Origin: Jiangella aurantiaca
Lineage (GTDB): Bacteria; Actinomycetota; Actinomycetes; Jiangellales; Jiangellaceae
Direction of reading: 5' to 3'
DNA length: 60,433 nt
NCBI RefSeq assembly: GCF_004349105.1
Contig: NZ_SMLB01000034.1
Coordinates: 1-60,433 of the forward strand
Shown here: piece by piece, positions 3,639-7,920 of the stretch
How the letters are laid out: the number at the start of each line of letters is the position of its first letter
Position numbering within the stretch: position 1 is the stretch's first letter
The notes under the pieces: model-generated
What the model was told of the DNA's origin: nothing
The model's database searches: none
Seen by the model: only the letters and a program-made list of their open reading frames with translations
Program-made: the position numbers and the translations under genes

Positions 3639-6512
3639 TCAGCCCGGGACGACGTTGACCAGCTTGGGCGCCCGCACGACGACCGTGCGCACGGGCCGGC
3701 CGTCCAGCGACCGCCGCACCGCCTCGGACTCCAGCGCCAGCGCCCGCAGCTCGTCCTCGCCGATCGACGGGGGGACCTCCAGGCGGTCGCGGACCTTGCC
3801 GGCGACCTGGACGACGCAGGTGACCGTCTCTTCCACCAGGTAGGCGGGGTCGGCCTCGGGGAACGGCTCGTGCACCAGCGACTGCGGGTGCCCCAGCCGC
3901 GACCACAGCTCCTCGGCGATGTGCGGCGCGACGGGCGCGAGCATCAGCACCAGCGCCTCAGCCGCCTCACGGGGGACGGTGTCCAACTTGGTCAGGTGGT
4001 TGTTCAGCTCGATCATGCGGGCGATGGCGGTGTTGAACCGCATCGCCTCCATGTCGGTACGGACGGCGTCGATGGCGCGGTGCAGGACCCGCCGGGTCTC
4101 GTCGTCGGCCGGAGCGGTCGACACGACCGTCTCGCCTGTGTCTTCTGAGACGATGTTCCGCCAGACCCGCTGCAGGAACCGCAGCGACCCGACGACGGCG
4201 CGGGTCTCCCACGGCCGGGACAGGTCCAGCGGACCCATCGACATCTCGTACACCCGGAAGGTGTCAGCGCCGTAGTCGCGATACATGTCGTCGGGCGTGA
4301 CCATGTTCTTCAGGCTCTTGCCCATCTTCCCGTACTCGCGGGTGACCGGGCGGCCCTCGAAGGTGTAGCCGTCCCCGTCCTCGACCACCTGCTCGGCCGG
4401 GACGTACTGGCCGCGCTCGTCGACGTAGGCGTAGGCCTGGATGTAGCCCTGGTTGAACAGCTTGTGGAACGGCTCCTCGCTGGACACGTGGCCCAGGTCG
4501 AACAGCACCTTGTGCCAGAACCGCGAGTACAGCAGGTGCAGGACGGCGTGCTCGACACCGCCGATGTACAGGTCGACGCCGCCGGCGTCACCGTCGCCCT
4601 GCGGGCCCATCCAGTACCGCTCGACCTCGGGGTCGACCAGCCGCTCGGTGTTGGTGGGGTCCAGGTAGCGCAGCTCGTACCAGCACGACCCGGCCCAGTT
4701 GGGCATGGTGTTGGTGTCGCGGCGGTACCGCTTCGGGCCGTCGCCCAGGTCCAGCTCGACCTCGACCCACTCCGGGACGCGGGCCAGCGGCGGCTCGGGC
4801 ATGGTATCTGCAGCGTCGGCGTCATATGTGCGCGGCGAGTAGTCGGGCACCTCGGGCAGGTCGACCGGCAGCTGGTCGTCCGGCACGGCGATGGGCTGGT
4901 CGTTCTCGTCGTAGACGATCGGGAACGGCTCGCCCCAGTAGCGCTGCCGGCTGAACAGCCAGTCGCGCAGCCGGTACGTGACGGCGCCCTCGCCGGTCCC
5001 CTTCGACTCCAGCCAGGCGATGATCGCGGCCTTCGCCTCGGCGACGCCCATGCCGTTCAGCGAGATCTCGTCGTTGGCGGAGTTGACCGCCGGACCCTCG
5101 CCGACGTACGCCTCGCCGTCGAAGCCGTCCGGCGGCTGCACGGTCCGGATGATCGGCAGGTCGAACCGCTCGGCGAACTCCCAGTCGCGCTCGTCCTGGC
5201 CGGGCACCGCCATGATGGCGCCGGTGCCGTACCCCATCAGCACGTAGTCGGCGACGAAGACGGGGATGCGCTCCCCGTTGACGGGGTTGACGGCGAACGA
5301 GCCGGTGAACACGCCGGTCTTGTCGCGGCCCCCTGAGGACCCAGCCTGACGCTCCGCATCTGTTTTTGTCGCGGCCTGGGCGCGGTAGGCGGCGACGGCG
5401 TCGGTGGGCGTCGCGTGCCCGCCGGTCCAGGCGTCCTTCGTCCCCGCGGGCCAGGCCGACGGCGTCAGCGCGTCGACCAGCGGGTGCTCGGGCGCCACCA
5501 CCATGAACGTCGCGCCGAACATGGTGTCGGGGCGGGTGGTGAAGATCTCCAGGTCGCCGGCGTCGGTCCGGAAGCGCGTGTTCGCGCCGGTGGACCGGCC
5601 GATCCAGTTGCGCTGCATCGTCTTGACCTTCTCGGGCCAGTCGATGCGGTCCAGATCGTCGATCAGCCGGTCGGCGTAGGCGGTGATGCGCATCATCCAC
5701 TGGCGCAGGTTGCGCTTGAACACCGGGAAGTTGCCGCGCTCGCTGCGGCCGTCGGCCGTGACCTCCTCGTTGGCCAGCACCGTCCCCAGCCCGGGGCACC
5801 AGTTGACGGGCGACTCGGACACGTAGGCCAGCCGGTAATCGTCGACGATGCGGCGCCGCTCGACGGCGTCCAGCTCACTCCACGCGCGGCCCCCGGGCAC
5901 AGCGCGCCGGCCGCTCTCGAACTCCTCGATCAGCTCCGCGATCGGCCGCGCGCGCCCGCGTCCGCCGTCGGCGGAGGTGTCGTACCAGGACTCGAAGATC
6001 TGCAGGAAGATCCACTGCGTCCAGCGGACGTAACCGGGATCGATGGTCGCGAACGTGCGTCGGTTGTCGTGCGCCAGCCCCAGCCGGCGCAACTGCCGGC
6101 GCATGGTCGCGATGTTCTCTTCGGTGGTCTTGCGCGGGTGCTGGCCGGTCTGGACGGCGTACTGCTCGGCCGGCAGCCCGAACGCATCGTAGGCCAGCGC
6201 GTGCAGGACGTTGTCGCCGCGCATGCGCCGGTAGCGGCCGAACACGTCGGTGGCGATGTACCCCAGTGGGTGGCCGACGTGCAGCCCCTTCCCGGACGGG
6301 TACGGGAACATGTCCATCACGAAGAACTTCTTCGCGGGCAGCTCGGTGCCGGGCTCGGCCAGCGGGCCGGTGGGGTTGGGCGCGTCGAACGTGCCCTCGT
6401 GCTCCCAGCGGTCCTGCCAGCGCTGCTCGATCTGGCCGGCCACCTCGGCGGTGTAGCGATACGGCGCGTCGTCGACGGGCGTCGTCGTCGTGCCGGTCTG
6501 CGTCTGGCTCAT
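3639..6512 (-). CDS. leuS: Leucyl-tRNA synthetase
   Basis: A 957-residue class Ia synthetase that charges tRNA-Leu in the cytoplasm. The HIGH motif appears as GLHVGH near residue 80 and the KMSKS loop as KMGKS near residue 730. Between them lie the CP1 editing domain ([20 protein letters not shown] and the [20 protein letters not shown] block) and the [14 protein letters not shown] zinc-domain region. The C-terminal anticodon-binding and [12 protein letters not shown] regions are complete. The KMGKS form is usual in actinobacterial LeuRS. A GAGGGAC ribosome site lies about 13 bases before ATG 6512. Expression is probably controlled by the leader peptide and terminator at 6554-6657. degV follows after 6 bases. 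Confidence 0.98.
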
Positions 6513-6553
6513 CGGAAATCGTCCCTCATCTGTGGTGTCGGGCCCGGAACGTG

Positions 6554-6579
6554 AAAAGACCCCTCACGCAGGAGGGGTC
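6554..6579 (-). terminator. Intrinsic terminator inside the leuS leader (attenuator)
   Basis: On the minus strand GACCCCTC and GAGGGGTC form a perfect 8-bp stem with a 6-base loop, followed directly by TTTT. It lies about 42 bases upstream of the leuS start and about 42 bases after the stop of the leader peptide, so it would end transcription before leuS. A second small hairpin (GACGCC/GGCGTC, 6594-6613) and a 7-bp complementarity between the end of the leader peptide (6625-6631) and the bases just before the terminator (6581-6587) are also present and could form alternative structures. Confidence 0.8.
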
Positions 6580-6621
6580 AGCCGCGCCGACGTGACGCCG
6601 CGAAAAGGGCGTCCGTTGCAG

Positions 6622-6657
6622 TCAGCGCGGCCCGATAAGGAGCAGCAGGCCTCGCAC
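6622..6657 (-). CDS. leuS leader peptide with four Leu codons
   Basis: An 11-residue reading frame, GTG start to TGA, encoding MRGLLLLIGPR. Four consecutive leucine codons (CTG CTG CTC CTT, 6648-6637) form its core. The GTG lies six bases after a TATCCT hexamer, so the transcript probably begins at the start codon and the peptide is translated without a Shine-Dalgarno site. A peptide rich in the cognate amino acid, followed by a terminator upstream of a synthetase gene, is the classic layout for ribosome-mediated attenuation. If charged tRNA-Leu is scarce, the ribosome stalls at the Leu run and leuS transcription continues. I found this by reading the leader; it is too short for normal gene calling. 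Confidence 0.72.
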   Translation of the reverse strand: MRGLLLLIGPR

Positions 6658-6663
6658 GTGGTC

Positions 6664-6669
6664 AGGATA
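6664..6669 (-). promoter_or_regulatory. -10 element of the leuS transcript
   Basis: TATCCT (TANNNT pattern) lies exactly six bases upstream of the leader-peptide GTG at 6657, placing +1 at or next to the start codon. No convincing -35 hexamer is visible in the GC-rich upstream sequence. The promoter overlaps the upstream region of the divergent terC-like gene, which starts only 49 bases away. Confidence 0.5.
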
Positions 6670-6705
6670 GCGCACTCGCCCGCCCCACGCCCCTCAGGTG
6701 TGGCC

Positions 6706-7920
6706 ATGGACGTCCCCGGCTGGGTGTGGACACTGACGGTGGCCGGCCTCGTCGCACTGCTGGCCTTCGACTACGTCTTCCACATCCGCAAGGCGCACGT
6801 CCCGACGCTGCGCGAGGCCGCGGTGTGGTCGGCGCTGTACGTCGGGATCGCCGTAGCCTTCGGCATCGGCGTCCTGGTGTTCGGCGGGACCGCGATGGGC
6901 ACGGAGTACTTCGCCGGCTACCTCACCGAGAAGGCGCTGTCGGTCGACAACCTGTTCGTCTTCCTGGTCATCCCGCACAGTTTCCGGGTGCCGCGCGAGT
7001 ACCAGCAGAAGTCGCTGCTGTTCGGCATCACGTTCTCGCTGCTCGCCCGGACCGCGCTGATCTTCGTCGGGTCGGCGCTGATCAACACGTTCGCCTGGGT
7101 GTTCTACCTGTTCGGGCTGGTGCTGCTGGTGACGGCGGGCAACATGCTCAAGCCCCGCGGCGGCGAGGTCGAGGAGGCCGGCAACATCGCCGTCCGCGCC
7201 GCCCGGCGGCTCTTCCACACGACGGACGGCTACGAGGACGGCCGGCTGTTCACCGTGCGCGACGGGCGCCGCGCGATGACGCCGTTGCTGCTGGTGATGG
7301 TGGCGCTGGCCGGCACGGACGTGCTGTTCGCGCTGGACTCGATCCCGGCCATCTTCGGGCTGACGCAGAACGTCTATCTGGTCTTCACCGCCGTCGCGTT
7401 CTGGCTGCTCGGGCTGCGGCAGCTGTACTTCCTCATCGACGGCCTGCTGGACCGGCTGATCTACCTGGCCTTCGGGCTGGCCACGATCCTGGCCTTCATC
7501 GGTGTGCGGCTCATCCTGCACGCGCTGCATGAGAACAACCTGCCGTTCGTCAACAACGGCGAACCGGTCGAGGTGGCCGAGCCCAGCACCGGGCTGTCGC
7601 TCGGCGTCATCGTCGTGGTCCTGGTGGTGACGGTGGTCGCGTCGCTGGTCAGCCACACCGGCCGGGCCCAGACGGCGATCGCCGGCGCCCGCCGGCACGC
7701 GACCGCCTACCTGGACTCGGAGTACACCGCCGACCCGGCCGAGCGGGAGCGGATCTTCCAGCGCCTGGTCGACGAGAAACAGCAGATCATCGCGCTCGGG
7801 CCGAAGTACAAGCAGATGGCCAAGGACGCCGAGGGCCTGCTCGACCTGGTCGACCGGGCCAAGGCCAGCCACGACGCGGCGGTGGCCCGGGGCGAGACCC
7901 CCGCCGGCCACCACCACTAG
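6706..7920 (+). CDS. TerC family integral membrane protein
   Basis: A 404-residue membrane protein with about nine hydrophobic helices. TerC hallmarks are EYFAGYLTEKALSVDNLFVF near residue 66 and the second acidic membrane motif GTDVLFALDSIPAIFG. The family is linked to tellurite resistance and, in other bacteria, to manganese export and metal loading of exported proteins; the ion for this one is unknown. After the last helix the C-terminus is hydrophilic and helical, ending in GHHH. The start at ATG 6706 is supported by AGGTG nine bases upstream; it gives MDVPGWVWTLTVAGLVALL, a normal family N-terminus. No yybP-ykoY type riboswitch is possible in the short 48-bp divergent gap to the leuS leader. 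Confidence 0.92.
   Translation: MDVPGWVWTLTVAGLVALLAFDYVFHIRKAHVPTLREAAVWSALYVGIAVAFGIGVLVFGGTAMGTEYFAGYLTEKALSVDNLFVFLVIPHSFRVPREYQQKSLLFGITFSLLARTALIFVGSALINTFAWVFYLFGLVLLVTAGNMLKPRGGEVEEAGNIAVRAARRLFHTTDGYEDGRLFTVRDGRRAMTPLLLVMVALAGTDVLFALDSIPAIFGLTQNVYLVFTAVAFWLLGLRQLYFLIDGLLDRLIYLAFGLATILAFIGVRLILHALHENNLPFVNNGEPVEVAEPSTGLSLGVIVVVLVVTVVASLVSHTGRAQTAIAGARRHATAYLDSEYTADPAERERIFQRLVDEKQQIIALGPKYKQMAKDAEGLLDLVDRAKASHDAAVARGETPAGHHH

Follow-up and report, generated by a model that had tools for sequence, protein, structure and literature searches.

A probable ribosome-mediated attenuator with a conserved helix abutting the terminator upstream of leuS in Jiangella aurantiaca and its relatives

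We analysed a stretch of 60,433 nucleotides from Jiangella aurantiaca (contig NZ_SMLB01000034.1, hereafter the window), in which leuS, encoding a leucyl-tRNA synthetase (LeuRS) of 957 amino acids, occupies positions 3639..6512 of the minus strand with its ATG at 6512 (TIGR00396, E 1e-268). The leader of this gene lies on the same strand. It opens with a -10 element read from the sequence, TATCCT (6669-6664), whose form TAnnnT also served as a selection criterion of the comparison set described below, and beside it stands a TGCG (6674-6671) that is conserved in relatives. Six bases separate the -10 element from the GTG (6657-6655) of a putatively leaderless uORF of 11 codons, MRGLLLLIGPR (6622..6657), with a TGA stop codon at 6624-6622. 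After the GTG its codons read CGA GGC CTG CTG CTC CTT ATC GGG CCG CGC TGA (6654-6622) and include a run of four Leu codons, CTG CTG CTC CTT (6637..6648), the final one being the rare CTT. The Leu run is followed by a 5-nt spacer (6632..6636), after which comes the first core G-C pair of a helix, here called helix A, of which the 5' strand (6621..6631) is made up of the uORF end, the stop codon and one further base, and the 3' strand (6581..6591) abuts the terminator. Helix A encloses a small hairpin (GACGCC/GGCGTC, 6594..6613), which by eye is missing in some relatives (e.g. L030, L091). The terminator stem-loop (T, 6558..6579) has a perfect 8-bp stem, GACCCCTC at 6579-6572 paired with GAGGGGTC at 6565-6558, and is followed by a TTTT run (6557-6554).

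A first-pass annotation of this DNA had listed the TATCCT element, the 6-nt distance, the GTG, the uORF with its four-Leu run, the 8-bp terminator and leuS, and all of these were recovered where it had placed them. It had also reported a 7-bp complementarity between 6625-6631 and 6581-6587, which is real but forms only part of an 11-bp helix (6631-6621 / 6591-6581), or of 12 bp when a G-U pair counts. Its statement that leuS is without a T-box agrees with the absence of any RF00230 match in the window at the gathering score, and at 6500-6720 up to E 5. When the 145-nt leader is folded to minimum energy (z -2.58), the terminator is present and the 11-bp helix A lies directly before it. We scanned the window for leaderless uORFs (TAnnnT, 5-8 nt, ATG or GTG, at most 25 amino acids) and found a single one with at least two adjacent Leu codons, the one before leuS, while 20 random windows drawn from a dinucleotide model held a mean of 0.15 with two adjacent Leu codons and 0 with three or more. 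The -10 element is at a fitting distance from the GTG for a leaderless start, the 5' end having been mapped only in leuL2 of S. lividans, and transcription probably starts at or next to the GTG. Looking upstream of the -10 element for a -35 element we saw none, and upstream conservation is mainly the TGCG. A divergent plus-strand frame beginning MDVPGWVWTLTV starts by eye at 6706 (6706-7920; a longer open frame covers 6490-7920), and with that start the leuS promoter would lie within a very short divergent intergenic region.

For comparison, leuS and its upstream DNA were taken from 60 genomes (30 loci obtained) and from 80 named records, and 8 loci were removed as duplicates before counting, leaving 102 distinct upstream regions. 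The first-pass annotation had suggested looking in relatives for a conserved Leu-rich uORF and terminator: 50 of the 102 regions have a TAnnnT box followed by a uORF in which Leu codons are adjacent, a recognised uORF is absent from the other 52, and the terminator was found by script in 49 of the 50 uORF-bearing leaders. The encoded peptides are MRGLLLLIGPR and variants in Jiangellales, MRAVRLLLSEPR in Streptomyces, MAGVFLLLTGPC in Micromonospora and MTAAVLLTQPR in Georgenia. Several Cellulomonas, Promicromonospora and relatives without the uORF have a TAnnnT 6-7 nt before the start codon of leuS itself (a GTG in L043, L044, L046, L047, L052, L059 and similar loci), so leuS there looks leaderless and unattenuated. 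The resulting set of 49 leaders (alignment A1) was chosen by TAnnnT, two adjacent Leu codons and terminator before any model was built, and 20 of the 49 are from Jiangellales; the terminator of L020 was not found by the script, so this leader is outside A1 but inside the wider alignment A3.

A model of the leuS leader (R1) was then used to search genomes of the class at E 0.01, and matched 164 of 393 genomes and 66 of 137 genera, with at least six of these matches (G089, G135, G250, G266, G290, G329) lying not at leuS leaders but at the coordinates of strong matches to the cimA model described below. A search across the phylum matched 21 of 296 genomes, of which 14 were class genomes already counted; of the other seven matches, one precedes leuS, three precede ilvB and three precede no known gene. 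Alignment A3 comprises 91 hand-chosen leaders, 50 fetched via leuS itself, for which the downstream leuS is trivial because they were fetched through it, and 41 fetched via R1, all of which precede leuS (41/41, matches without leuS having been left out). Also left out were R1 matches at three ilvB loci, three without a gene, those at cimA and leuA loci and chance matches; L182, which ends at a contig end, was dropped. Loci L199, L200 and L201, where no known gene was found, were taken as chance, as were weak R1 matches in the genome of the window itself (E 1.7 and worse), where no leader was visible. The leaders of A3 precede two very different types of LeuRS, 65 of them the long type and 26 a short, distant type. 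Examples of the same leader before both types include L150, L151, L175 and L128, and in genome G020, which has two leuS genes, both are preceded by this leader (L128, L154).

RNAalifold recovered helix A and the terminator unaided from the 49 aligned leaders. Pairing holds in 94.9% of the cells of this unfitted alignment, and both-side changes occur in 43 cells, compared with 12.5 in shuffles, although one of five covariation measures showed no excess (16 pair types, against 16.6 in shuffles). In the larger set of 91 leaders, which was aligned with the model and is therefore biased towards it, pairing holds in 95.8% of cells. Both-side changes affect 13 of the 19 pairs and amount to 114 cells against 24.0 in shuffles, a value reached by 0 of 500 shuffles; structures slid along the same alignment pair in only 39.6-54.1% of cells. 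Micromonospora has CCGTGC/GCACGG in helix A, against CCGCGC/GCGCGG elsewhere, at the cost of an Arg to Cys change in the peptide. Helix A is also retained where the stop codon precedes it (L064, L084, L090, L100) and where the stop codon follows it (L178, L211), which indicates that the tail of the uORF peptide is dictated by the RNA helix. We had considered the PR tail as a peptide that slows release, and discarded this since helix A persists untranslated in L064, L090, L100 and L084.

These data bear on the proposal that LeuRS or another protein binds the leader RNA, with the uORF secondary. Protein binding has been proposed for the leuA LEU element, according to the accessible part of PMC1262725, and the four outer pairs of helix A are near-invariant in sequence (89-91 of 91 leaders); yet its inner pairs vary while pairing is kept, the leader precedes two deeply different LeuRS types, and cimA has the same layout with other codons and another helix sequence. 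We regard such binding as highly improbable.

Exactly 5 nt separate the last Leu codon from the core G-C pair of helix A in all 49 leaders, and likewise in 87 of 90 leaders of A3 (L206 has no Leu run by script), an alignment that, like the cimA alignment A4 below, was fitted to a model fixing much of the layout, so that its gap and spacer counts lean towards that layout. Where gaps of 3-4 nt are listed, the helix has the same position but gains one or two outer pairs. Helix A ends 0 nt from the terminator stem in 36 of the 49 leaders, 1 nt in 6, 2 nt in 6 and 3 nt in 1, as measured by a script that considered only helices ending 0-4 nt before that stem. The last Leu codon is CTT in 49/49 leaders and in 81/90 of the wider set. 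Among 80 leuS genes, with 5438 Leu codons in all, CTT accounts for 1.6%, and the leuS of the window uses it at 0 of 65. The helicase of the ribosome acts at +11, counted from the P-site codon, and when CTT occupies the A site helix A starts at about +12, next to that position. The base after the last Leu codon is A in 48/49 leaders, but in only 77/90 of the wider leuS set and 8/50 of the cimA leaders. Known +1 slippery sites suggested a frameshift at CTT-A, and we rejected it: by eye, the +1 frame after CTT runs open into the terminator in the window but ends early in close relatives such as L002. Pairing of the Leu codons with the 3' arm of the terminator (CUCCUU/GAGGGG) was likewise set aside, not being kept by eye in the Streptomyces and Georgenia leaders.

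Weaker R1 matches led to uORFs with Ile codons, followed by a helix and an abutting terminator, before the citramalate synthase gene cimA (TIGR00977 for the two proteins tested). A second model, R2, was built from seven of these leaders and gave matches in 228 of the 393 class genomes, spread over 99 of 137 genera; leuS leaders are among these matches. Among the fetched matches outside the training set, 45 of 47 precede cimA and two precede no nameable gene; the latter (L260, L262) carry Ile-run uORFs, MFALVIIM and MFTPRIII, and were left out of A4, the alignment of 52 cimA leaders that includes the seven training loci. The genome of the window has its own cimA leader (L241, G000:C38:36814-36905; uORF MTYSLIIS). 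Both-side changes in the cimA leaders amount to 48 cells against 8.1. Of the 50 leaders used for spacing (L251 and L253 have no Ile run), 39 have a gap of 5 nt and 47 a helix-to-terminator spacer of 1 nt, both counts leaning towards the fitted layout. The last Ile codon is ATC in 31/50 and ATT in 19/50, so that a last codon ending in U is no general rule. We found no report of a leader before cimA or citramalate synthase in the open-licence literature, and the cimA leader appears to be unreported.

Related arrangements were seen at other genes. At three ilvB loci outside the class (L196, L197, L198) the codons are CTC GTA CTT ATT; only in L197 was a start codon identified. Their gaps are 5, 3 and 3 nt, the last two having two extra outer pairs; their stop codon is right before or in the helix, and the terminator abuts it. 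Three leaders were assigned to leuA by eye: the gap is 5 nt and the helix 12 bp long in two of them, and the third pairs further out (gap 1). The one T-box match in the genome of the window (L265, G000:C7:30300-30522) scored 43.1 of 93 bits, below the Rfam cut-off, and the frame downstream resembles IleRS by eye. Tentatively, and with less than even confidence, we suggest a ruler common to Actinobacteria, in which the last regulatory codon stands 5 nt before a helix, placing the helix at the mRNA entry of the ribosome during decoding of that codon, and this helix abuts the terminator and blocks it by space and not through shared bases; leuS (Leu), cimA (Ile) and some ilvB leaders (branched-chain amino acids, BCAA) would form one class, and the leuA LEU element would follow the same ruler without a terminator.

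The folding of the 49 leaders was computed with and without a masking ribosome. Without a mask, helix A and the terminator coexist (mean P(A) 0.96, mean P(T) 0.99). With ribosome entry at +11, mean P(A) is 0.94 when the ribosome is at the last Leu codon and falls to 0.65 one codon further on, to 0.11 after two and to 0.00 after three; with a wider footprint, which extends 11 rather than 5 nt beyond the A site, it is 0.11 at the last Leu codon and 0.93 at the first. Mean P(T) stays at 0.94-0.99 at every ribosome position tested, and its lowest single values occur with the ribosome at the stop codon (L090 0.42, L019 0.66). The suggestion of the first-pass annotation that uORF translation can alter folding was borne out in these computations for helix A, which is opened, but not for the terminator, which is not removed. 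In thermodynamic terms no switch in the required direction is seen, and the small drop in P(T) falls where the model needs the terminator.

Because the consensus and the single folds alike contain helix A together with the terminator, helix A is not an antiterminator that shares bases with it. A base-sharing antiterminator of the trp/his layout was looked for in the 49 leaders and not found, P(T) being high in all masked states; the spacer script saw only helices ending before the terminator and gives no independent proof against base sharing. The leader might still be a classical base-sharing attenuator as in enterobacterial trp, helix A being the protector (1:2) or pause hairpin and an overlapping antiterminator having been missed. 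Helix A ends by eye 10-12 nt before a CCT|G in many leaders, a distance that resembles that of known pause hairpins. In the trp geometry the stalled ribosome covers region 1, whereas here helix A starts 5 nt past the last Leu codon, so that a stalled ribosome need not cover it; moreover, no stalled state brings mean P(T) below 0.97 in the 49 leaders, and the distance from stop codon to terminator is merely 18-24 nt in some (L084 18, L030 23, L075 24, L079 24). The accessible text of PMC1262725 reports antiterminator and terminator hairpins at leuS of two Streptomyces, and the antiterminator there may be helix A. On balance we think a classical arrangement unlikely, though it deserves weight. 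A pause-hairpin reading outside that arrangement was dropped, the G at -10 of the supposed pause not being conserved by eye.

That the terminator folds whatever the position of the ribosome would also suit a constitutive terminator, with helix A merely slowing the ribosome or the polymerase, the promoter setting leuS and the uORF acting as a minor tuner. Leader-codon changes in S. coelicolor, as summarised in the accessible part of PMC1262725, had no effect at ilvB and at leuA an effect inconsistent with classical attenuation, which points the same way. However, the codon run agrees with the amino acid of the gene in both cases, Leu before leuS and Ile before cimA, and different families retain both the 5-nt gap and, at leuS, the rare CTT; we consider constitutive termination improbable.

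The reading we prefer is that the leuS leader is a ribosome-mediated transcription attenuator with helix A as its translation-sensitive element, to which we assign a probability of roughly 0.78. The leader combines a Leu-rich uORF, an intrinsic terminator and an RNA structure whose sensitivity to the ribosome is computed only; the uORF, helix A and the terminator, with their covariation and spacing, are read from sequence and comparison. The CTT bias, the parallel Ile layout at cimA and leuL2 of S. lividans also favour this reading; against it count the high P(T) at all ribosome positions, the loss of helix A at the last Leu codon under the wider footprint, the 52 of 102 upstream regions in which no uORF was recognised, the leader-codon results at ilvB and leuA in S. 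coelicolor, and the covariation measure without excess. With high confidence the leader is an attenuator that senses leucine, and uORF and terminator very probably switch leuS on when charged leucine tRNA is short, in line with the response to charged tRNA-Leu that the first-pass annotation had inferred. The transcript would begin at or next to the GTG of the four-Leu leader peptide, which ends its run in the rare CTT. A ribosome awaiting Leu-tRNA at any Leu codon, the final one included, would leave helix A intact, and a ribosome past the last Leu codon would run into helix A and open it; that translation past this codon opens the helix is a step we hold to be likely. An intact helix A would then give readthrough and an opened one termination, a direction we assign because starvation must turn the synthetase on. 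Since helix A and the terminator share no bases, we propose that the intact helix hinders the terminator sterically or kinetically, the base of the terminator being unable to close inside RNA polymerase. This steric antitermination is put forward as a possibility that we rate below even odds; the accessible parts of the open-licence literature on steric antiterminators and entry-site helices in leaders held nothing that settles it. It raises a testable question, namely whether a helix that touches a terminator without sharing bases with it can act as an antiterminator.

The attenuator interpretation of leuS is not new. In the portions of the cited papers available to us, leuS attenuators were predicted in Streptomyces coelicolor and S. 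avermitilis (Seliverstov et al. 2005, PMC1262725), which likewise have a Leu leader peptide and antiterminator and terminator hairpins before leuS; two species are covered there, whereas the present comparison has 91 aligned leaders and both LeuRS types. The leader leuL2 of S. lividans TK24, found leaderless in 2021 with its start mapped by RNA-seq and a -10 element of TAnnnT, also joins a leaderless uORF, MRAVRLLLSEPR, to a hairpin with uridines and leuS, but belongs to another genus, and the available text gives no spacing rule or covariation (PMC8079986). At the ilvB1NC attenuator of Mycobacterium tuberculosis a uORF with BCAA codons and a terminator similarly control readthrough, and the terminating ribosome is said to mask about 26 nt and to block the antiterminator; according to the same partial source, the gene differs and terminator and antiterminator are mutually exclusive there (PMC13236596). 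The Corynebacterium ilvB uORF motif, as far as the accessible text goes, shares the BCAA-codon uORF and two stems, the second a terminator, but its stem P1 is said to contain a complementary antiterminator sequence and the gene is another (PMC11109978). Mycobacterial polycysteine uORFs are also leaderless, with an amino-acid run and a role as attenuators, but in the part of that work available they act by translation attenuation, whereas a terminator stands at leuS (Canestrari 2020). The T-box (RF00230) likewise senses tRNA charging for synthetase genes, but none is present at this leuS. The accessible parts of PMC4833913, PMC2965389, PMC9413887 and PMC11109978 contained no treatment of a leuS or cimA leader, and no Rfam 15 family matched the leuS leader above its gathering score. 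The spacing ruler, the absence of shared bases and the cimA family are, we think, the new parts, and the comparison makes the leuS attenuator a measured, common element outside Rfam 15, linked to a sister at cimA that would sense isoleucine.
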